From contig CAMBOD010000001.1 of the NCBI GenBank assembly GCA_945868985.1, positions 1 to 32,263 of the forward strand: a DNA stretch of 32,263 nt, read 5' to 3'. This stretch comes from Prosthecobacter debontii (GTDB lineage: Bacteria; Verrucomicrobiota; Verrucomicrobiia; Chthoniobacterales; Chthoniobacteraceae). A program made the position numbers and the translations under genes. The notes beneath the pieces were generated by a model. It saw only the letters and a list, made by a program, of their open reading frames with translations, was not told the origin of the DNA and searched no databases. Every line of letters begins with the position of its first letter. Positions within the stretch are counted from its first letter, which is position 1. Positions 21,954 through 32,263 of the stretch are shown here, one piece after another.

Positions 21954-22727
21954 TTAAAGCCGCACGGAGACCCCGTGTTCGGCTAGGTATTTTTTTACGT
22001 CCGCTACGGTGTATTCGCCGAAATGAAAGATGCTCGCGGCGAGCACGGCGTCTGCGCGGCCCTCGCTGAGCACGTCGGCCATGTGCCCGAGATTTCCTGC
22101 ACCACCGCTGGCGACGACGGGGACGCCGACTGCTTCGCTCACTCGGCGGGTGATGACGAGGTCGTAGCCGGCCTTGGTGCCGTCGGCGTCAATCGAATTC
22201 AGCACGATCTCCCCCGCCCCGCGCTGCACGGCTTCCTCGGCCCATGCGACTGCGTCCTTGCCGGCGGGCTTGCGTCCGCCGTGGATGAAAACTTCCCAGC
22301 GATCGGGCGCGGTTTTTTTGCAATCAATGCTGACGACGATGCACTGGCTGCCGAATTTATCCGCTCCAGCGCTGATGAGTTCCGGCGTGGCGATGGCGGA
22401 GCTGTTGATGCTCACTTTGTCCGCACCGGCTTTGAGCATTGCGCTCATATCGTCCACCGCGCGGATGCCGCCGCCGACGGTGAGCGGCATAAAGCAGCAA
22501 GCGGCGGTGCGCTCGATCACATCCACCATCGTCGCGCGGCCGTGTGCGCTCGCGGTGATGTCGAAAAAAACCATCTCGTCCGCACCTTGATCGTTGTAGC
22601 GGCGCGCAAGCTCCACGGGATCGCCGACGTTGCGCAGTCCGCCGTCCTCGGCGCGCCCGAACTGCACGCCGCGCGTGACTTTTCCATCGTGGACATCGAG
22701 GCACGGAATGACGCGTTTTGTGAACAT
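21954..22727 (-). CDS. hisF: imidazole glycerol phosphate synthase cyclase subunit
   Basis: 257 aa from the ATG 22727 ([20 protein letters not shown]). HisF is the synthase half of the HisH-HisF complex and makes imidazole glycerol phosphate and AICAR from PRFAR and ammonia, joining histidine and purine synthesis. The catalytic acids are in PCLDV (D11) and VSIDCKK (D135); phosphate-binding loops are PLTVGGGIR and VVASGGAGN. The length is normal. No other his gene is nearby, so histidine genes are scattered in this genome. Confidence 0.96.
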
Positions 22728-22845
22728 GAGAACCGCGATTTAGCGGACGGCGCGCGCGGGCGCAACTCCGGCGGAATGTGACAGTCCTGTATGCCAGTAA
22801 TCTCCGTTTCATTTTGCACATGGACTGTGCTTCATTCGCGCACCC

Positions 22846-23481
22846 ATGAGCGCCATGCAGCAACCTTCTGAGCCCGCCAAGGAAGTTATCGCACCGAGGC
22901 ACGAATCATTGACCAAGGAATTCGATGAAGCGCGGCGTGCACTTCAGCCCGAGTATGGCGAAGTGCGTCTGTGGCTTGTGGCGCGCGATCCGCACTGGCT
23001 GTTTGCCTATTGGGAGTTTAATCCCGACGAGCATCCCGAAGCGCGTGGCGAAGATGGTGCCGCTCATTTTTTCCTTCGCGTCCAGCGCGAGGACGGAACG
23101 GTGGAGGCGACCGTCGAAATCCAGCCCGGCGCGGGAAACTGGTATGTTCCCGTGCGACAAGCTGACTGCGCCTACACAGCAGAGCTTGGTATTTTCACAT
23201 CGGGGGCGTGGGCATTTCTAGCGCGCTCCGGTGCGACCCGCACTCCGCCTGTGGATGCAGACGACGTTTTCACAACACTAACATCGAAAATTCCCTCACG
23301 ACTCAGCCTCACCGAAATGCGTGCGCTGATGGCGGGTCAATCGCTGCCCGGAGAAAGCACCGCGCAAACCGCCGCGCGCGTGCAGGACTCCGTCCACCGC
23401 ACTGTGCGCTGGACGCCCGAGCAGGAACGGATGCTGGAGAAATTGCTCGCCGAGGAGGCCGAAAAACGCAGCGCGCAATAA
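22846..23481 (+). CDS. DUF4912 domain protein
   Basis: A 211-aa soluble protein. About residues 35-125 carry the DUF4912 pattern: EVRLWLVARDPHWLFAYWEF, a beta-sandwich with FFLRVQREDGTVEATVEIQP, NWYVPVRQADCAYTAELGIF and the ARSGATRTP end. This resembles a carbohydrate-binding-like or Ig-like fold, and its role is unknown. The C-terminal 60 residues are helical and charged, with WTPEQERMLEKLLAEEAEKR. Transcription ends at the strong hairpin at 23531-23558. It is divergent from hisF with 118 bases between starts. Confidence 0.85.
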   Translation: MSAMQQPSEPAKEVIAPRHESLTKEFDEARRALQPEYGEVRLWLVARDPHWLFAYWEFNPDEHPEARGEDGAAHFFLRVQREDGTVEATVEIQPGAGNWYVPVRQADCAYTAELGIFTSGAWAFLARSGATRTPPVDADDVFTTLTSKIPSRLSLTEMRALMAGQSLPGESTAQTAARVQDSVHRTVRWTPEQERMLEKLLAEEAEKRSAQ

Positions 23482-23530
23482 AGACGTAGAATAGATCGCG
23501 AGCGGAGGGAAACGCACCCCTTCACCAAAA

Positions 23531-23560
23531 AAAGCCGGAGCCTTTCGACTCCGGCTTTTT
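23531..23560. terminator. strong bidirectional intrinsic terminator
   Basis: AAAGCCGGAG (23531-23540) and CTCCGGCTTT (23549-23558) form a perfect 10-bp stem with an 8-base loop. It is flanked by an A-run on the left and a T-run on the right, so it ends both the DUF4912 transcript and the convergent oxidoreductase transcript. Confidence 0.92.
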
Positions 23561-23579
23561 GTAAGCTTGCTTGGTGCGC

Positions 23580-24968
23580 TTAGATTTTGTCGGCGGAATA
23601 TTCCCAGCCTTTGCGATAGGCGGTGCGCTTGATGAATTTGTTCGCGTCTTCGTTGTCGAACTTGAGCGCCTTGGAATCCCACTTCAGGCGTTTGCCGGGG
23701 AAGCGCATGGCGAGACCGCCGATGAGCGTGGCCTCGGTCAGCGGGCACGAGTAGTCGAAGTGTGCAGCGTATGCGAATTCCTTTCCGAGTTTGATGGACT
23801 CGGTCCATTCCTGCTGCGGGTTGCCGTGTGTGATGCTGCGCGGCTCGGTCTTTGGGATTTTGTCTTCCGGGAATTCCTCGCGGCGTTTCTTGGGCCAGAT
23901 TTGCATGCCCTTCGCCTGGTCGCTCTTGTTCAAAATGACGCCCTCGGTGCCGACAATCATCCAGCCACCTGCGGAGACGCCCCTGCCAAATGCCTCGGCC
24001 ATATCAATGCTGGCCGGGAATTCCGGCAGGTAGGGTTTGCCGTCGGGCTTCTTGCCTTCATACCAAGTGAACGGAACGTCTCCGTGGCCGGGGACGTTGG
24101 TGAATTCGAGTTTCACGATGCTGCCGGTCGGCCATGCGATGTCAGTCAGATCGTCCACTTGCGTGGCTGTCACCGCGCTCGCGGTGGTGAGGCCGAGCGC
24201 GACGAAAGGCGCGTCCATCAAATGGCAGCCCATGTCGCCAAAGGCGCCGGCACCCCATTCGAGAAAGCCGCGCCATTTGAAGGTGTGCACGTTGTCCGAA
24301 TACGGAATGTCTGGTGTCTGGCCGAGCCACTGCGTCCAGTCGAGGTGCGCGGGCGCCTTGCCGGTTTTGTTGAGCACGGCGCTTTTCCCCTGCGGCCAAA
24401 TCGGGCGGTTTGTCCACACGTGGACTTCTTTCACTTTGCCAATGACGCCCGCCTTCACCCACTCGGTGGTGACGCGGTTGCCTTCGTAAGTGTGGCCCTG
24501 ATTTCCCATCTGTGTGATGACGCCTTTTTTGCGCGCAGCGAGATGGAGCTGGCGGTTTTCCCACAGCGTGTTCGTGAGTGGTTTCTGGATGAACACATGC
24601 TTACCGAGGCCGATGGCGTGCATCGCTGCGGGGTAGTGCATGTGGTCGGGCGTGCTGATCGTCACGGCCTCGATGCCCTTGATCTCGTCGAGCATCTTGC
24701 GGAAATCGCTGTAGGCTTTTGCGTTCGGGTAGCGCTTTTGTGCGTTCGCAAGGGCGTTCGCGTCCACGTCGCAAATGGCGACGATTTCATTGTTGCCGGA
24801 AACGCCCGAGGCATCGCTCTCGCCTTTGCCGCCTACGCCGATGCACGCGAGCGCGACCTTCTTGTTCGCACCCTGCGCGCGCAGGTAATTGGGAAACATG
24901 CCCGATGCCGTGATGGCACCGATGCCTTTGAGGAATGAACGACGGGATGTCTGTGGAATATGGATCAT
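23580..24968 (-). CDS. Gfo/Idh/MocA family oxidoreductase with Tat signal
   Basis: 462 aa from the ATG 24968. The N-terminus has a twin-arginine signal, TSRRSFLKG (RR at 9-10), followed by a short hydrophobic stretch, so it is probably exported folded with its cofactor. The Rossmann loop is CIGVGGKGE, then VAICDVDANAL, STPDHMHYPAAMHAIGLGKH and VFIQKPLTN, where the usual EKP is QKP but the catalytic Lys remains. The C-terminal half is the alpha/beta substrate domain. Such secreted NAD(P)-dependent sugar oxidoreductases are abundant in Planctomycetota and Verrucomicrobiota. It follows the MurK-MurQ-like gene by 95 bases on the same strand. Substrate unknown, probably a sugar or glycan. Confidence 0.92.
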   Translation of the reverse strand: MIHIPQTSRRSFLKGIGAITASGMFPNYLRAQGANKKVALACIGVGGKGESDASGVSGNNEIVAICDVDANALANAQKRYPNAKAYSDFRKMLDEIKGIEAVTISTPDHMHYPAAMHAIGLGKHVFIQKPLTNTLWENRQLHLAARKKGVITQMGNQGHTYEGNRVTTEWVKAGVIGKVKEVHVWTNRPIWPQGKSAVLNKTGKAPAHLDWTQWLGQTPDIPYSDNVHTFKWRGFLEWGAGAFGDMGCHLMDAPFVALGLTTASAVTATQVDDLTDIAWPTGSIVKLEFTNVPGHGDVPFTWYEGKKPDGKPYLPEFPASIDMAEAFGRGVSAGGWMIVGTEGVILNKSDQAKGMQIWPKKRREEFPEDKIPKTEPRSITHGNPQQEWTESIKLGKEFAYAAHFDYSCPLTEATLIGGLAMRFPGKRLKWDSKALKFDNEDANKFIKRTAYRKGWEYSADKI

Positions 24969-25063
24969 GTGGTTGTTTGGTTTTGTTGGGAAGTGACCGG
25001 ACGAACCGGCACGCAAGGGAGTATGACCCGCGTGGGTATTGCCAGCTTAGAATCTGTGAAAAG

Positions 25064-26815
25064 TTATTTACCGATCGGACGTCGGGAAAGTGCCGCGACA
25101 ACGTCCCAATGATTCGCGACGAGCAATTCGCGAGCGACTTCGGTGTCCAGCCCGAGCGCCACAGCCACCATGCGTGTCGCGCGGTCACGCAATTTCACAT
25201 TGGTCGCGCGCAGATTTACCATCGCACCGCCGCGCACTTTGCCGAGGCGGATCATCGCGCAGGTCGAGAGGATGTTCAGCGCAACTTTCGTGGCGGTGCC
25301 CGCTTTCAGGCGCGTGGAACCGGTGACGATCTCCGCGCCCGTCGGCAGATCGAACTCCACGTCCCACGGCTGCGGCGATGGGTTCCGTGTTGGATTGCAG
25401 GTGAGAAGAATCGTCCGCGCTCCGAGTTGCCGCGCTCGCGCCAGTGCGCCGATCACAAACGGCGTCCGCCCGCTCGCAGCGATCCCGCACACCACATCGC
25501 CCGCACGCACGCCGCGCCCGGTCATCGCGAGCGCGCCTGATTCACGTGAATCCTCCGCAGCTTCCGCCGAATGTGTGAGCGCAGACGCACCACCGGCGAT
25601 CACGCCCTGCACCAATTCGGACGGCGTGCCAAAAGTCGGCGGGATCTCGCTCGCATCCAGCACGCCCAGACGACCGCTCGTGCCCGCACCTGCGTAAAGA
25701 AGCCGCCCGCCCTTCGACAGCGCGGCTGCGATCAATTCCACCGCATCCGCGAGCCTGTCTTTGCACGCCGCCAGCGCCACACGCACTCGATCCTCTTCTT
25801 CGACAAACAGCGCCACGAGTTCGCCCGCCGACATTTTCTCAAGCTCCTCCGCACGCGGATGCACCTGCTCGGTCGCCGCGCTCGCCAGCTCTCCGGCGCT
25901 AGCGACTTCAGAGGAAAGTGCGGCGGGATTTTCCATATGAACCGCCCCTTTTCGCGCCAGCGCCGCCGCACCAAAAGCCCCACTCCGCGTGCAAAGCTCT
26001 ACGTTTGCGCCCGGCAATTTCTCAGCGAGCAAACGGCGGTAGTGCGCTGCGTAGCCGGGTTCCTTCGTGAGGAGCCCGCCGAGCAGACGCACATCAACGC
26101 TTTCCATCCCGAGACGTTGCGCGACCGCGACCGTGAACCGAGCAAGATCACCAGCGCGATGTTCGATCAACTCCTGCATTTCCACGTCACCCGCATCCGC
26201 CGCCCGGAAAATCACGGGCGCAAGCCGCGCGACCTGCATCTTGTCGGCCTGGTTCACCCAGTCCACGAGCTGCGGCAGTTCATTCAGCGAAAGCTCGGCG
26301 AGGATCGCCGATGCGAGCGGGGAAAGCGTGCCCTCGATGTCGTAACGCAGGATCACCTTGCGCAGGGCGTGACGACACATGTCGTAGCCGCCACCACGGT
26401 CGCCGAGGATGTGCCCCCAACCGCCGGATTTTTCCACGCGCCCGCCCTTCCTTCCATGCACGACAGCACCCGTGCCGCTGATGACCACGATTCCGTCGCC
26501 ATCCCCCAGCGCCGTGGCAAAGCCAGATTCACAATCACTCCCCACACTCACGCGCGCAGCCGGCCACGCAGCGACAGCCAGCCGCCGCAGCCGTGCGCGA
26601 TCGTTTTCCGACAAACACCCCGCGAGAAACACGCCCGCTTCATTCACCTCGCGCGGCAGCACCGCGAAAAGTTGCGAGAGCTGCGTATCCGTGGAGAGCT
26701 TCAGATTCGCCGCGCCAAGCTGGCCTTCCCCGAGCACGCGCCCAGTGTCATCGAGAAGCACCCAGTCGGTTTTTGTGCCACCGCCTTCAACGCCGAGAAT
26801 GGTGTGATTTGCCAT
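25064..26815 (-). CDS. murQ: fused N-acetylmuramate/GlcNAc kinase and N-acetylmuramate-6-phosphate etherase
   Basis: One 583-aa frame from the ATG 26815. Residues about 1-295 form a BadF/BadG-type sugar kinase: LGVEGGGTKTDWVLLD (phosphate 1), SDCESGFATAL, VVISGTGAVVHG (phosphate 2) and the adenosine motif VRLLGGLLT. After a linker, residues about 310-583 are MurQ, a SIS-domain etherase: GGRLLYAGAGTSGRLGVLDA followed by SEIPPTFG (catalytic Glu), then HSAEAAEDS and GIAASGRTPFVIGAL. Clostridial MurK, a BadF-family kinase, phosphorylates MurNAc and GlcNAc; MurQ then splits MurNAc-6-P into GlcNAc-6-P and D-lactate. The fusion would join two consecutive steps of peptidoglycan recycling. The actual sugar of the kinase half is inferred from its partner. 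Confidence 0.92.
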   Translation of the reverse strand: MANHTILGVEGGGTKTDWVLLDDTGRVLGEGQLGAANLKLSTDTQLSQLFAVLPREVNEAGVFLAGCLSENDRARLRRLAVAAWPAARVSVGSDCESGFATALGDGDGIVVISGTGAVVHGRKGGRVEKSGGWGHILGDRGGGYDMCRHALRKVILRYDIEGTLSPLASAILAELSLNELPQLVDWVNQADKMQVARLAPVIFRAADAGDVEMQELIEHRAGDLARFTVAVAQRLGMESVDVRLLGGLLTKEPGYAAHYRRLLAEKLPGANVELCTRSGAFGAAALARKGAVHMENPAALSSEVASAGELASAATEQVHPRAEELEKMSAGELVALFVEEEDRVRVALAACKDRLADAVELIAAALSKGGRLLYAGAGTSGRLGVLDASEIPPTFGTPSELVQGVIAGGASALTHSAEAAEDSRESGALAMTGRGVRAGDVVCGIAASGRTPFVIGALARARQLGARTILLTCNPTRNPSPQPWDVEFDLPTGAEIVTGSTRLKAGTATKVALNILSTCAMIRLGKVRGGAMVNLRATNVKLRDRATRMVAVALGLDTEVARELLVANHWDVVAALSRRPIGK

Positions 26816-26900
26816 GTGAAAAAATCGGTTGCCGGAAAATGCCCTCATAACCCGCGCTTGGCAATGGCGGCAAACCTACTAACTCAACAGCCACTCAAAC

Positions 26901-27326
26901 ATGACTCCCGCACTCATCTGGTTCCGTCGCATCTGCTGGCTCGGTGTCGCGATTTGGACGGCAACGGTATTTTACCTCTCGTCCCAAGGCGGCCCGGATC
27001 TCGCCGAACAAATGCCATTCTTCATGGCGATGTGGGACAAGCTCCTGCATTTCGTCGCATTTCTCAGCGGCGCATGCGCTCTGCTGCCAGCACTGCGGCT
27101 CAGCTATTCATGGTCGTGGAAAAAAGTCGCGCTCACTTGCATCGCCTGCCTTTCCATCTACGGCGCACTCGACGAAGTGCACCAATACTGGACGCCAAGC
27201 CGCAGCGCGCTCGACCCGCTCGACTGGCTCGCAGATACTCTCGGAGCCGCCACCGGCACCACACTCGCCTTTTTCATCCATGCCTTCTGCGAAAGAAAAA
27301 ATCGCCGCACTACGTCGGGAAATTGA
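26901..27326 (+). CDS. VanZ-like membrane protein
   Basis: A 141-aa protein with about four membrane segments (near residues 8-26, 45-65, 75-92 and 115-132). It has the VanZ family marks: DKLLHFVAFLSGACAL after the first loop, and DEVHQYWTPSRSALDPLDWL followed by ADTLGAATG. VanZ-like proteins are widespread, and their role outside teicoplanin resistance is unclear. Its last 47 bases overlap the start of ligA in another frame, so the two are probably coupled. It is divergent from the murQ fusion gene with 85 bases between starts. Confidence 0.88.
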   Translation: MTPALIWFRRICWLGVAIWTATVFYLSSQGGPDLAEQMPFFMAMWDKLLHFVAFLSGACALLPALRLSYSWSWKKVALTCIACLSIYGALDEVHQYWTPSRSALDPLDWLADTLGAATGTTLAFFIHAFCERKNRRTTSGN

Positions 27327-30198
27327 GGAACACGACCGTCGCTACTACGTCGAGGCCCGCCCGACGATCAGCGACGCCGCCTACGACGTGCTCTATCGCG
27401 AACTCCGCGCACTCGAAGAAGCACACCCAGAACTCATCACACCCGATTCGCCAACGCAGCGCGTGGGCGGCGCGCCGTCGAAAGGCTTCAAACAGGTGCG
27501 TCACCAGGTGCCGATGCTGTCGTTGGAAAAAATCGAGCCACCGACACTAACGGGCGCGGATGCGGAACTGGAGTTTTCAAAGCGTGTGCGCTTGCAGGAC
27601 GAGCGCACCGTCGAGGAACTGCGCTGGTTTGACCAGACGATCCGCAAACAGCTCGACTCGGAGAAGGTCGGCTATGTGATGGAGCCGAAGGTGGATGGCG
27701 TCTCCATTTCAGTCTATTACCGCGATGGTTTGCTAACGCTAGGCGTCACGCGCGGCGACGGCACGACAGGAGACGATATCACGGCAAATCTCCGGGCGGT
27801 GAAGGCGATCCCGCTGCGACTCGACATGCCGAATCCTCCCGCGCTGCTCGAAGTCCGTGGCGAGGCCTACATGCCGGTGAAGGAATTCGAGGCGATGAAC
27901 GCCGCGCTCGAAGCTGCTGGCGAGAAGACGTTGCCGAATGCGCGCAACGCGACCGCAGGCACGCTCAAGCAGCTCGATTCCAACGCCGTCGCGAAGCGCC
28001 CGGTGCGCGCGGTCTTTTACGCTGTTGGTGCGCTCGATGGCATCAGCTTTGCCACGCACGGCGACACGCTGCGCGCGTTGAAGAAATTCGGCCTGCCGAC
28101 GCAGGAGCTGTGGTGGGAGTGCGACGACATGGAGGACGTCATCGCGAAGTATCAGAGCGAAGTGGTGAGCGATTACGACGAGAGTCGCGACCTGCGGACG
28201 AAGCTCCACTACGAGATCGATGGCATCGTGATCAAAGTGAACGACCGCGCCGCGTGGGAGCTCATCCCCGCGAAGGCGAAGGCACCGGGCTACGCGATCG
28301 TCCACAAGCCCGTGCCGTGGATTTCCGGCGCGGTGACTGAACTTCTCGGCATCACGATTCAGGTCGGACGCACTGGCGTGCTTACGCCCGTCGCCGAACT
28401 AAAGCCTGTGTTCGTGCAAGGCTCCACTGTCTCTCGCGCAACACTGCACAACGACGAAGAAATCAAGCGTAAGGACATCCGCATCGGTGACACGCTCATT
28501 ATTCGCAAAGCCGGCATGGTCATTCCCGAGGTAATTGAGGTCGTGAAGTCAAAGCGCCACAGCTCTGCAAAACCGTTCGATCTCTTTGAATACGTTGGTG
28601 GTAGATGTCCCGCGTGCGGAGGGCAGGCAAAACGCGATCCCCGATTCCACGTGTATGCCAAATGCACAAACCCGGAGAAGATCGGAACCCGATTCAAATG
28701 CACATATAGTTCGGACGATTTAAGTTTGGTTGACCAAACATGCCCGATTTGTCGCGAGGCTAAAATGAAGCGAGAAGCAGACTATGCTGACTGGATTTGT
28801 GAAAACATCTCCGGCTGCCCCGCGCAGCTCGTTCGACGCGTTGAGTTCTTCGGCCAGCGGAGTGCACTCGATATTGAGGGCGTCGGCGGGGTCGTCGCGG
28901 AAAAACTCGTCGAGCGCGGGCTGGTAAAATCACCGCTCGACCTTTTCGATCTGCGACTCGAACAACTCGCGAAACTCAACCTCGGTAGCGACGACGAACC
29001 GCGCATTTTCGGCGAGAAAAACGCCACGAAAGTCATCGAGGGAATTTCGCGCGCAAAGACGCAACCGCTCGCTCGCTGGCTTCACGCGTTTGCCATTCCC
29101 GATGTTGGCGAACAAACTGCTTCCGATTTAGCAGCGTTCTATCCGGATCTGAAAACACTACTCACTTCAGATCTGATCAAAGACACAGCTGAACTCGGAA
29201 AATTCAGGCGTATTTTTGAGCAAAACAAAAATGGGAAAGAGGAAGCGCACCTGACGGCACCTGAAAAAACAGCGAGAAGGCAACGCCAAGAAGAAGCAAA
29301 ACATCAAGGGAACCCGATCGGTCAGCGCTTGGTAGAATCAGGCTTTGCTCGTTCTGCCGCCCAACCGTGGCAGGCAAAGACACTGATTGGTCCAAGTGCT
29401 GCACAGGCAATCGTGGATTGGGCGGCAGGACCGTATGGGCTGGCTGCATTGCAGAAGATGGATGCTCTAGGACTCAATCCTAGCGCAGCGAGAAGGTATC
29501 ATTTGAAGACAGCAACGCAGGCGGTGGTGCATCTGGCCTCTAACAGACAAAAGAAACTTCTGAAATTCTTCGGAGCAAAGTTTTCCGATCGATTGTCTGT
29601 CGGTGCCGCAGGCTTCGAGATCAAGAAGTTGATGGATAATGAGGCCCGCCGAGAGCTTTGGAGAAAGTATCTTTTTCTAAGCCAGGATTTCGATTCCGAA
29701 TCTGACGAACTCAAACCATACGATGCGGACGCATTGGCGTCTGTGGTGGTTCCGGAGGATTGGAGTAGTTCGGATGCAGTTTCTGAATACCGCAAGGAGT
29801 TTGCTGCGGATTTGCTGCAAGACCATTCTCCTTACGACGATCCTCAGCCACCTATCGAATTTGTTGATCGTTCCTTTGTTTTCACTGGGGCGTTTGGTTT
29901 CGGATCTAGAATTGAGTGCCAACAAGAGGTTATTCGGCGAGGAGGTAAAACACAGAGCGCGGTCAGTCGGACAGTTGACTACCTCGTTATCGGTGAGGAG
30001 GGCAGCAAAGCTTGGAAGGAAGGAGCTTATGGAAACAAAATTGAGGCGGCAGTTATCGCGCGCAGGGAGTGTGGAATGCCAGCGATCGTATCTGAAGCGC
30101 ATTGGGTTGAAGCACTGCTTCGCAATCCGATCGAGGAACATCAGGCCCCGAAAATTAAGGCACCGCTGAATGATGATAAACAGGGCAGTCTTTTTTGA
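27280..30198 (+). CDS. ligA: NAD-dependent DNA ligase, unusually long and mosaic (LigA)
   Basis: 972 aa from the ATG 27280; LigA is usually 650-720. The N-terminal Ia domain (HDRRYYVEARPTISDAAYD), adenylation domain (EPKVDG, K137; TRGDGTTGDDIT; RGEAYMP; YEIDGIVIKV) and OB fold (RTGVLTPVAELKPV) are normal apart from a roughly 25-residue insert near 84-115. The zinc-finger region is doubled: C443/C446/C462/C474 and C488/C491/C507/C513. The first helix-hairpin-helix motifs follow (DIEGVGGVVAEKL, FAIPDVGEQTASDL). An insert of about 75 charged residues (635-700) then splits them from IGPSAAQAIVDW. About 120 novel residues precede a BRCT-like end (861-950; FVFTGAFGFGSR, VDYLVIGEEGSKAW). DNA at about 28590-28800 and 29150-30198 is visibly AT-richer. 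All catalytic motifs are intact. Confidence 0.93.
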   Translation: MPSAKEKIAALRREIEEHDRRYYVEARPTISDAAYDVLYRELRALEEAHPELITPDSPTQRVGGAPSKGFKQVRHQVPMLSLEKIEPPTLTGADAELEFSKRVRLQDERTVEELRWFDQTIRKQLDSEKVGYVMEPKVDGVSISVYYRDGLLTLGVTRGDGTTGDDITANLRAVKAIPLRLDMPNPPALLEVRGEAYMPVKEFEAMNAALEAAGEKTLPNARNATAGTLKQLDSNAVAKRPVRAVFYAVGALDGISFATHGDTLRALKKFGLPTQELWWECDDMEDVIAKYQSEVVSDYDESRDLRTKLHYEIDGIVIKVNDRAAWELIPAKAKAPGYAIVHKPVPWISGAVTELLGITIQVGRTGVLTPVAELKPVFVQGSTVSRATLHNDEEIKRKDIRIGDTLIIRKAGMVIPEVIEVVKSKRHSSAKPFDLFEYVGGRCPACGGQAKRDPRFHVYAKCTNPEKIGTRFKCTYSSDDLSLVDQTCPICREAKMKREADYADWICENISGCPAQLVRRVEFFGQRSALDIEGVGGVVAEKLVERGLVKSPLDLFDLRLEQLAKLNLGSDDEPRIFGEKNATKVIEGISRAKTQPLARWLHAFAIPDVGEQTASDLAAFYPDLKTLLTSDLIKDTAELGKFRRIFEQNKNGKEEAHLTAPEKTARRQRQEEAKHQGNPIGQRLVESGFARSAAQPWQAKTLIGPSAAQAIVDWAAGPYGLAALQKMDALGLNPSAARRYHLKTATQAVVHLASNRQKKLLKFFGAKFSDRLSVGAAGFEIKKLMDNEARRELWRKYLFLSQDFDSESDELKPYDADALASVVVPEDWSSSDAVSEYRKEFAADLLQDHSPYDDPQPPIEFVDRSFVFTGAFGFGSRIECQQEVIRRGGKTQSAVSRTVDYLVIGEEGSKAWKEGAYGNKIEAAVIARRECGMPAIVSEAHWVEALLRNPIEEHQAPKIKAPLNDDKQGSLF

Positions 30199-30325
30199 AA
30201 ACAAGCGAGGGAACGAAGATAAAAAGCACCGAAACAGGACGAGTTATTTTGATCGTCAGAACACCGATGGCGACCGTGAAAAAAACCGTAGGAAGCGGGC
30301 ACTGAGTTCGCTACAGTCCACGCCC

Positions 30326-30985
30326 ATGGAAATTGTCCCGATTGAAGTTTTTGGCATCCACGTTGACGTCGCATTCCCTGCACCGCTCGGCTTTCAGGCC
30401 GCGAAGCTGGAGGAGTTTGGCGCAAAGATTTGCGACCCCAAAGAGGGACTGCCACTGCGTGCGGAACATATCCGGCTCCGCCGCTTCGATGAGCTTTTCG
30501 ACTACGAAGTGAAGGCTGTATTTTTCGGCGAAAACGGCACGCTCACCCGCACTGCGGAACGCATCAAACTCGGCATCCGCAACGCACGCACACAGGGCGA
30601 CTGGAACGTGATCCAGCAGACGTTCACGCGCTTTTATACGCTCATGGATTTCGACGAGAAGTCTCTCTCTCACCTCTCCGCGCACGCGCACGCAAAGTTT
30701 GAAACACTCGAAGCACGCGATGAGTGGCTGAAACAATTTTCACACAACGCCCTGATAGATAAGGCCGCGGCGCTCGGCTACGTGAAGATCGCCGATTGGG
30801 AAAAAGAAATCCGCGTGCTCATGGAACCATCAAACATGGTGCCGAACGCCGTCTTTATTTCGTGGGATACCCAGTTCGTGAACCTTCAGGAATGGGACAC
30901 CTTCATCGGCTCTCTGCCGAATGTGATGGAAAACTCGGCGAACTATTTCGAGATCGGCTTCGAACCGTTCAAGGAACGCGTATAG
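30326..30985 (+). CDS. unknown soluble protein
   Basis: 219 aa from the ATG 30326 (MEIVPIEVFGIHVDVAFPAP); the frame is open from 30170, but the upstream part is Lys/Arg/Asn-rich and unlikely to be coding. There is no signal peptide or membrane segment. The N-terminal half looks beta-rich (FDELFDYEVKAVFFGENGTLTR) and the middle helical (ERIKLGIRNARTQGDWNVIQQTFTRF). No family recognised. It lies 127 bases after ligA; that AT-rich gap shows no clear promoter or terminator. It converges on the prenyltransferase-like gene with a 3-base gap. Normal codon use for the window supports a real gene. Confidence 0.7.
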   Translation: MEIVPIEVFGIHVDVAFPAPLGFQAAKLEEFGAKICDPKEGLPLRAEHIRLRRFDELFDYEVKAVFFGENGTLTRTAERIKLGIRNARTQGDWNVIQQTFTRFYTLMDFDEKSLSHLSAHAHAKFETLEARDEWLKQFSHNALIDKAAALGYVKIADWEKEIRVLMEPSNMVPNAVFISWDTQFVNLQEWDTFIGSLPNVMENSANYFEIGFEPFKERV

Positions 30986-30988
30986 CGC

Positions 30989-31903
30989 TCACTGAACGGC
31001 GAGATGCCCGAGTGCGAGCAGGCCGTAGAAAGTATATTCCGCATCGAGCGCATCGTCCGCCCAATGTCCGTGAAAACCACCCTCCGCGCTCCACAGCGTG
31101 TCCACAAAATCGAGACACCGCTCGCGGATTGCCTCCGGCAAAGTGCGGTCGAGACACGATAGCGCGTGAAGCGCAGTGGCCGTGGAAAGCAAATCCGGCA
31201 ACGGAGATCCGGGCGCCGCAAGCCAGCCGCCCTCCGTGTGCGCCTGCGCGAGCAGCCAGTCGCCGACGGCATCATTCACCGGCACGCCGAGCTGATGGAG
31301 CAAAGTCACCGCCGCTGCAGTCGCGGGCACCGTGCCCTGACGCATCCCGCGCACATTTCCCCACGCACCGTCGGGTGTTTCGAGAAACTTTAAGCACTGC
31401 ACCATCCACATCGCATCCGGCACTTCGCGCCCGAGGTCCTGATACGCACCGAGCGCGACAAAACACCCATACGCATGCCCGTGCACCGCGCCGCGCTTCT
31501 CGTGATAGCCGCCATCCGCCGTGCGAAATTCCTCAATGCGCGCCAGCAATTGATCGGCATCGGAAACCACACCACTCGCCGCCCTGCACCGCGCCAGCGC
31601 TCCGAGGTGGATAAAATCCAAACCTTCCCCTTCCCCAAACGCCGCCACAAATTTTCCCAGCGCATCCCGCTGCGAAGAATTTTCGTCATCCGCAAATCCG
31701 TCATTCGTCATTGTCACCGCCTGCATCCCCGCGAGCGCAAAGATGGTGTAGTAAAGATCCGCACGCCCCGCGCGGTCGCACGCCCCGCCTTCACTCGTGA
31801 ACTGCCGCATCAAAAAACCGCGCACCAATTCCGTCGAGTCTCCGAGCATCTTCGGAGCAAGCCGTGCGACCTGGAGCATTTCGAGACGGAGACTTCGGTT
31901 CAT
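30989..31903 (-). CDS. prenyltransferase/squalene-cyclase repeat protein
   Basis: 304 aa from the ATG 31903 (MNRSLRLEMLQVARLAPKML); a GTG at 31933 is also in frame. The sequence is an alpha-alpha toroid with five repeats of the GG(F/Y/W) type: SEGGACDRAGRADLYYTIFAL, ADGGYHEKRGAVHGHAYGCF, PDGAWGNVRGMRQGTVPATA, TEGGWLAAPGSPLPDLLSTA and AEGGFHGHWADDALDAEYTF. This is the layout of protein prenyltransferase beta subunits and terpene cyclases. The cyclase DXDD motif is absent and zinc ligands cannot be assigned with confidence. In Planctomycetota/Verrucomicrobiota such proteins are common and uncharacterised. It follows the truncated unknown gene by about 45 bases on the same strand. Confidence 0.82.
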   Translation of the reverse strand: MNRSLRLEMLQVARLAPKMLGDSTELVRGFLMRQFTSEGGACDRAGRADLYYTIFALAGMQAVTMTNDGFADDENSSQRDALGKFVAAFGEGEGLDFIHLGALARCRAASGVVSDADQLLARIEEFRTADGGYHEKRGAVHGHAYGCFVALGAYQDLGREVPDAMWMVQCLKFLETPDGAWGNVRGMRQGTVPATAAAVTLLHQLGVPVNDAVGDWLLAQAHTEGGWLAAPGSPLPDLLSTATALHALSCLDRTLPEAIRERCLDFVDTLWSAEGGFHGHWADDALDAEYTFYGLLALGHLAVQ

Positions 31904-31947
31904 CTCGCCAAGTCTCCGCGCCAGCACGCACACGACAAGATGATTCC

Positions 31948-32263
31948 CTAGCGCCGCTTTTTTTTGCGCGGGAGTTTTTCGTCGAAGCCGGGTCGCTTAA
32001 ATTTCCGCGCCTTCGGAAAACGCTTTGTGGTAGCACTGCGTAAACGATCCAAATGGACGAGGATTTCGAGGACGCTGTCGGTTTTTTCCGGGAAGAGTGA
32101 CTGGAGCGCCGTCCACGCTTCGATGGTGTTATCGAGAGCGATGAGAGCGACTTTGGCGGATCCATCGGAATCGAGCACGCCGGTCTGACGATCCTCGGTT
32201 TCTTCGACTCGCGAACTGAATGCGCGGCAGAGCTTCACGTAGATGAGGTGTTGATACCAGCGG
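31948..32263 (-). CDS. unknown protein, 3' end of a gene cut by the window edge
   Basis: The frame is open from the right edge to the stop at 31948-31950 (about 105 codons). A GTG at 32238 is in frame, but coding-like sequence continues upstream (RWYQHLIYVKLCRAF), so the gene most likely starts beyond the window. The visible part is helical (NTIEAWTALQSLFPEKTD, then VLEILVHLDRLRSATTKRF) and ends in a basic Lys/Arg tail (EKLPRKKKRR). No family recognised. It is probably cotranscribed with the prenyltransferase-repeat gene downstream. Confidence 0.65.
   Translation of the reverse strand, partial: RWYQHLIYVKLCRAFSSRVEETEDRQTGVLDSDGSAKVALIALDNTIEAWTALQSLFPEKTDSVLEILVHLDRLRSATTKRFPKARKFKRPGFDEKLPRKKKRR

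Follow-up and report, generated by a model that had tools for sequence, protein, structure and literature searches.

DNA ligase is essential and belongs to the core replication machinery, and its gene is usually thought to be inherited vertically and with a fixed order of domains. The ligA gene considered here departs from this picture in its length, its zinc-finger region and its C-terminus, and the question that it raises is how such a gene came to have the form that it has. The window, i.e. the whole stretch of DNA that was analysed, is one entire contig (C1, 32,263 nt) from a 2.5-Mb genome that is in 408 contigs and 76% complete. The features of the locus, as we read them, are these:

26901..27326, + strand: VanZ-family gene, the 5' neighbour of ligA in many family members (the ancestral locus)
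27280..30198, + strand: ligA ORF, encoding a mosaic NAD+-dependent DNA ligase (P0001) of 972 aa; ATG at 27280, stop at 30196-30198
27280..27440, + strand: native 5' remnant of ligA, codons 1 to ~54-62; DNA ~98% identical to the ligA of the same-genus genome G007
27441..27465, + strand: left recombination junction, codons ~54-62, in a PTQRVGG motif
27535..27609, + strand: 25-residue insert (residues 86-110), the hallmark of the "type-2" ligase body
27610..28593, + strand: adenylation (K137 in KVDG) and OB domains of the type-2 body
28594..28824, + strand: doubled zinc finger, Cys 443/446/462/474 and 488/491/507/513
28825..29493, + strand: HhH domain with a long helical charged segment; a family-wide form, with the modelled helix at residues 660-687
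29494..30132, + strand: fused partner replacing the LigA BRCT; helical domain (~753-850) and divergent BRCT (~861-950)
30178..30198, + strand: C-terminal KQGSLF-stop (QxxLF, beta-clamp-binding-like), found also on native LigAs
30229..30252, + strand: native ligA scar, the last codons of the displaced gene; CCGAAACAGGACGAGTTATTTTGA = PKQDELF-stop

The product remains a recognisable LigA. It passes both NCBIfam cut-offs (NF005932, 601.9 versus 369 bits; TIGR00575, 578.1 versus 444.45), its adenylation, OB and zinc-finger domains are recognised (the first by PF01653 at 225.6 bits), and the nucleophile lysine of the KxDG motif is K137 in an intact KVDG. With bacterial LigA (PF01653-PF03120-PF03119-HHH_2-BRCT; TIGR00575/NF005932) it shares the Ia, KxDG adenylation, OB, zinc-finger and HhH domains in canonical order; it differs in the doubled zinc finger, in the two-domain partner that stands for the BRCT, and in its mosaic ancestry. 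The LigA-type C-terminal BRCT is missing, and a BRCT of another subtype is present together with an extra domain. Because the BRCT is dispensable for sealing in the LigAs tested, its loss makes the protein a variant, but still a LigA. No second ligA was found in the available assembly (76% complete); the single PF01653 (adenylation-domain) ligase gene found there is that of the window. One member of the class, in G300:C34 and G300:C35, has two genes with ligase adenylation domains (ORFs of 738 and 1078 aa). The original prediction called the enzyme oversized, and at 972 aa it is, but part of the excess is normal for the lineage, in which the other f1 LigAs are mostly open frames of 670-880 aa. 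The closest relatives with public names are in an uncultured Spartobacteria MAG, CAIRYQ01 (the G004 locus), and a Verrucomicrobiota MAG, BJFP01 (the G005 locus); nearly all of the comparison genomes are draft MAGs.

The history of the gene can be read from its borders. Compared with G007, the window is homologous at the DNA level over 21954-27530 (90%) and again over 30229-31948 (95%), with a strongly diverged ligA body in between, and VanZ and the downstream genes are the same around ligA in both. The left border is sharp: only four differences fall in 27252-27464, followed by ~45 in the next 95 nt. It lies inside a conserved coding motif, and the reading frame is unbroken across it. On the right, the scar CCGAAACAGGACGAGTTATTTTGA corresponds to the final 24 nt of the G007 ligA and stands 30 nt beyond the stop codon of the window's ligase. 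Homology to G007 thus resumes on the end of a native ligA, so the resident gene has received the body of a foreign one. A third genome, G001, has at the same locus a type-2 body with a native-type last third, its right junction being near 29117. One locus thus shows three states of the gene: native in G007, partly replaced in G001 and largely replaced in the window. We conclude that the window's ligA is a genuine mosaic and an essential gene replaced in situ; it is a domain variant of a well-known enzyme and not a new kind of system. In the upstream flank, identity to both G007 and G001 dips to 65-68% at 25850-26000 (82-98% around it), and on the minus strand an ORF at 25064-26848 appears by eye to combine an N-acetylglucosamine-kinase-like domain with a MurQ-like etherase domain.

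Domain trees divide the protein in the same manner. The tree of residues 1-85 places the window with G007 (support 0.971); that of residues 111-438 places it among other-family ligases (0.997). In a tree of the adenylation and OB domains, the window, G001, G004, G005 and G031 lie with several other families, apart from the native ligases of their own family. The adenylation domain shares 61-67% identity with other-family ligases and ~40% with most of the native ligases in its own family. The ligA of G004 is at a different locus (neighbours MurJ and aconitase), and no homology of flanking genes was seen around that of G005. From these sequence comparisons, we consider it very probable that a horizontally acquired type-2 ligA, with a fused neighbour protein, displaced the body of the resident gene at its own locus. 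An incoming xenologous ligA would have recombined at the resident locus and swapped the gene body, so that the first ~60 codons and, at the 3' end, a 24-nt scar are still native. This allele is a "type-2" ligase of the sort found across several Verrucomicrobiota families, and in it the place of the normal BRCT is taken by an entire LigA-neighbour protein, made up of a helical domain and a divergent BRCT.

The exchange could have run the other way: the type-2 gene may be old and vertical, the native-type genes of its sisters (G007, G002, G006, G008 and G009) newcomers, and the scar the product of a later exchange in the reverse direction. Both allele types do occur within the genus and the family, the VanZ locus included (G031), and the direction of exchange is unrooted. 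Yet the native type is the prevailing one in the family and forms a group of its own in the tree, and native-type N-terminal codons and a post-stop scar flank the type-2 body. Such remnants are the expected trace of a type-2 gene entering a native one, not of the reverse, and we regard the old type-2 gene as quite unlikely.

Replacement of the whole body alters how base composition along the gene is to be understood. The original prediction held that a conserved, GC-rich core was native and that AT-richer parts had been added from outside. GC and GC3 are 60-63% and 67-87% over residues 1-345, 55 and 65 in the OB domain, 52 and 52 in the zinc region, 55 and 58 in HhHa, and ~49-53 and 43-52 at the 3' end. 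The fall in the zinc region and at the 3' end is real, but it begins at the OB domain, and the stretch between the AT-richer parts (HhHa) is unlike the 5' part and is not a GC-rich island. Nor does the compositional step mark the foreign border, for the borders between native and foreign DNA are at 27441-27465 and ~30229, outside the region that had been singled out. Since the replaced part is the entire body from codon ~60, the "conserved" adenylation domain belongs to the foreign part; the native portion amounts to the first ~60 codons and the 24-nt scar after the stop. The idea of a mosaic with outside additions holds for the C-terminus and is plausible for the zinc finger, but the charged HhH segment is the family form. 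That segment does lie within the domain, at residues ~650-720, but is no insertion specific to this gene: it is common to most ligases of the window's family and is predicted to be a long, confident helix.

The C4 zinc finger between the OB and HhH domains is present, but doubled: the eight cysteines in two CxxC...C...C sets are confirmed, and the Pfam model of the LigA zinc finger matches the region in two stretches. It is single in the three nearest ligases (G001, G004 and G005), but a second set is also carried by G031, from the window's own family, and by G195 and G067, which belong to other Verrucomicrobiota families. GC3 of the zinc segment is below that of the preceding OB domain both in the window (52 versus 65) and in G195 (57 versus 96). 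This behavior suggests a segment that comes and goes, by insertion or loss. A doubled finger would give the ligase a larger DNA-contacting surface.

The C-terminus had been described as rebuilt, with about 120 unfamiliar residues before a BRCT of a divergent kind. Some 115 residues do precede a divergent BRCT, but this is no rebuilt BRCT: judged by its homologues, the last ~220 residues are an entire free-standing two-domain protein, encoded elsewhere by a neighbour of ligA, in the place of the LigA BRCT. The Pfam BRCT model scores below its cut-off here, and BRCT-like elements appear at high pLDDT in the predicted structure. In the model of the C-terminus (pLDDT 82.6), the BRCT fold is nearest to those of bacterial DnlJ and RFC1; a structure search with the same model gave no recognised fold match for the helical domain. 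Residues 739-972 are 79-83% identical in G004 and G005, and absent from G001, which has a normal LigA BRCT. The fused form is therefore common to three MAGs, with the G005 copy split across two contigs inside the BRCT. Omega values of 0.02-0.10 for the fused domains (against G004 and G005) indicate strong purifying selection. We found no description of a LigA-partner fusion in the open-access literature.

As a free protein, the partner is best seen in G195 (L073), where a 206-aa ORF, 57% identical to the window's C-terminus over its residues 6-201, begins 17 nt past a ligA ORF with an ordinary BRCT; in the alignment, partner-family homology spans both domains of the free protein. Further free genes adjoin ligA at L095/G059, L096, L098/G256 (upstream of ligA) and L100 (truncated), and others lie away from it at L089, L090, L093 and L097. 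Among loci with enough flanking sequence, five are fused and five adjacent, versus four clearly unlinked; contig ends were too close at four further loci, which were excluded. The neighbours of the unlinked copies (NUDIX, methyltransferase, S24 peptidase) form no common context, and with at least four loci away from ligA the role of the partner is not strictly bound to ligase. The family is rare, with a long match in 5 of 286 genomes of the class, and a phylum-wide profile search added matches to the BRCT half only. More distant BRCT proteins adjoin ligA in G025, G062, G067 and G317, several with another N-terminal part. At L044:3843-4823, L077:5528-6532, L078:5507-6379 and L079:5424-6353, ligA-adjacent genes encode a divergent BRCT followed by a LigA-type BRCT, as though the neighbour had acquired a copy of LigA's own BRCT.

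The partner family, in its other main branch, has likewise replaced the LigA BRCT in two Nitrospirales MAGs (L092 and L094). A single origin for these fusions and those in Verrucomicrobiota was rejected (AU test, p=6e-6). The Nitrospirales fusions (L092:3625-6612 and L094:3844-6609) have a core with a Verrucomicrobiota-like HhH segment, which suggests transfer between phyla. A mobile-element origin of the C-terminus was also rejected: phage and plasmid records match the BRCT half only, at <50% identity, and the sole IMG/VR match duplicates a match to a Betaproteobacteria contig, in both the encoded protein and the locus coordinates. Plain read-through or deletion joining ligA to a downstream gene is insufficient alone, because the fused protein ends in QxxLF like native LigAs and the free partners do not.

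These observations also bear on whether the gene is simply an ordinary lineage form, the outcome of normal divergence of Verrucomicrobiota LigA with neither transfer nor fusion. Many ligases of the lineage do have the charged HhH segment and the QxxLF tail, and doubled zinc fingers recur across the class, but the architecture is not that of the class at large: G001, 91% identical over residues 1-452, has one zinc finger and ends in a normal BRCT, G007 has a native ligA at the same locus between homologous flanks, a native scar follows the window's stop, and the C-terminus has free-standing homologues. Ordinary divergence is very unlikely. An assembly chimera of two ligase genes might be suspected in a MAG of 408 contigs and 76% completeness, the more so as the doubled zinc finger occurs only in the window among the four closest ligases, but it is highly implausible given a C-terminal fusion in three separate MAGs, a type-2 body at the same locus in G001, a frame open throughout with normal codon-level selection, and a 5' junction placed in a conserved coding motif with no break of frame.

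For in-situ replacement by a fused allele, the remaining question is what the new C-terminus would do. A LigA without its BRCT binds DNA more weakly but retains ligation, the BRCT being unneeded for nick sealing in the LigAs tested (PMC10504179); the replacement BRCT and helical domain would then supply nick binding and protein contact. The fused BRCT, of the DnlJ/RFC1 kind, would bind nicks or DNA ends in cis, and the helical domain would add a protein-binding surface. The fused partner is thus likely to be a nick- or DNA-binding and partner-tethering module in cis. QxxL(x)F is a clamp-binding consensus, and binding to the beta clamp is seen in the ligase of H. pylori (PMC4976356); the C-terminal QxxLF tail would, by analogy, tether the ligase to the sliding clamp. 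A QxxL[FL] tail ends 20 of the 43 ligases compared, as well as the window's LigA and its fused Verrucomicrobiota relatives, and QxxLF is absent from free partners and Nitrospirales fusions. We take it to be a putative clamp tether kept through the exchange, although its presence may in part be chance. QxxLF-like ends occur in the window at 30178-30198 and, in the scar, at 30232-30252, and are typical of the C-termini of LigA in this lineage.

Known systems resemble parts of this arrangement. Free BRCT proteins and the BRCT of DnaQ-type exonucleases (NF004844, PRK06195) are of the same divergent subtype (LVIG...W...YG.KI), and residues 859-926 match PRK06195; the window's BRCT, however, is covalently joined to LigA, has no exonuclease domain, and is preceded by a helical domain outside that match. 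In phage split NAD+ ligases (Eps7 "ligase subunit B"; the PR1 heterodimer, PDB 9hu3), part of the ligase machinery is separately encoded, as with ligA and its neighbour, but there the ligase itself is split, whereas genomes with the partner hold a complete LigA and an extra BRCT protein; fold matches to the phage subunits were weak. The clamp motif of H. pylori LigA is likewise near the BRCT and C-terminus (PMC4976356), and the putative motif of the window is at the extreme C-terminus.

That the partner gene is often beside ligA in other bacteria suggests that it works with DNA ligase, and two independent fusions of one neighbour protein make it a probable functional partner of LigA ("Rosetta stone"). 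We give about an even chance to the broader proposal, that an undescribed family of LigA cofactors (helical plus divergent BRCT; in Verrucomicrobiota and a few other phyla) normally acts in trans beside LigA, has been fused onto LigA on two or more occasions, displacing the native BRCT, and has been exchanged between species within whole alleles by in-situ replacement. Three related genomes show the ligA of this locus untouched, replaced in part and replaced for the most part, with a scar that can still be read. The fusions, in turn, give a directly testable claim about the role of the poorly understood BRCT of LigA and about which proteins can substitute for it.
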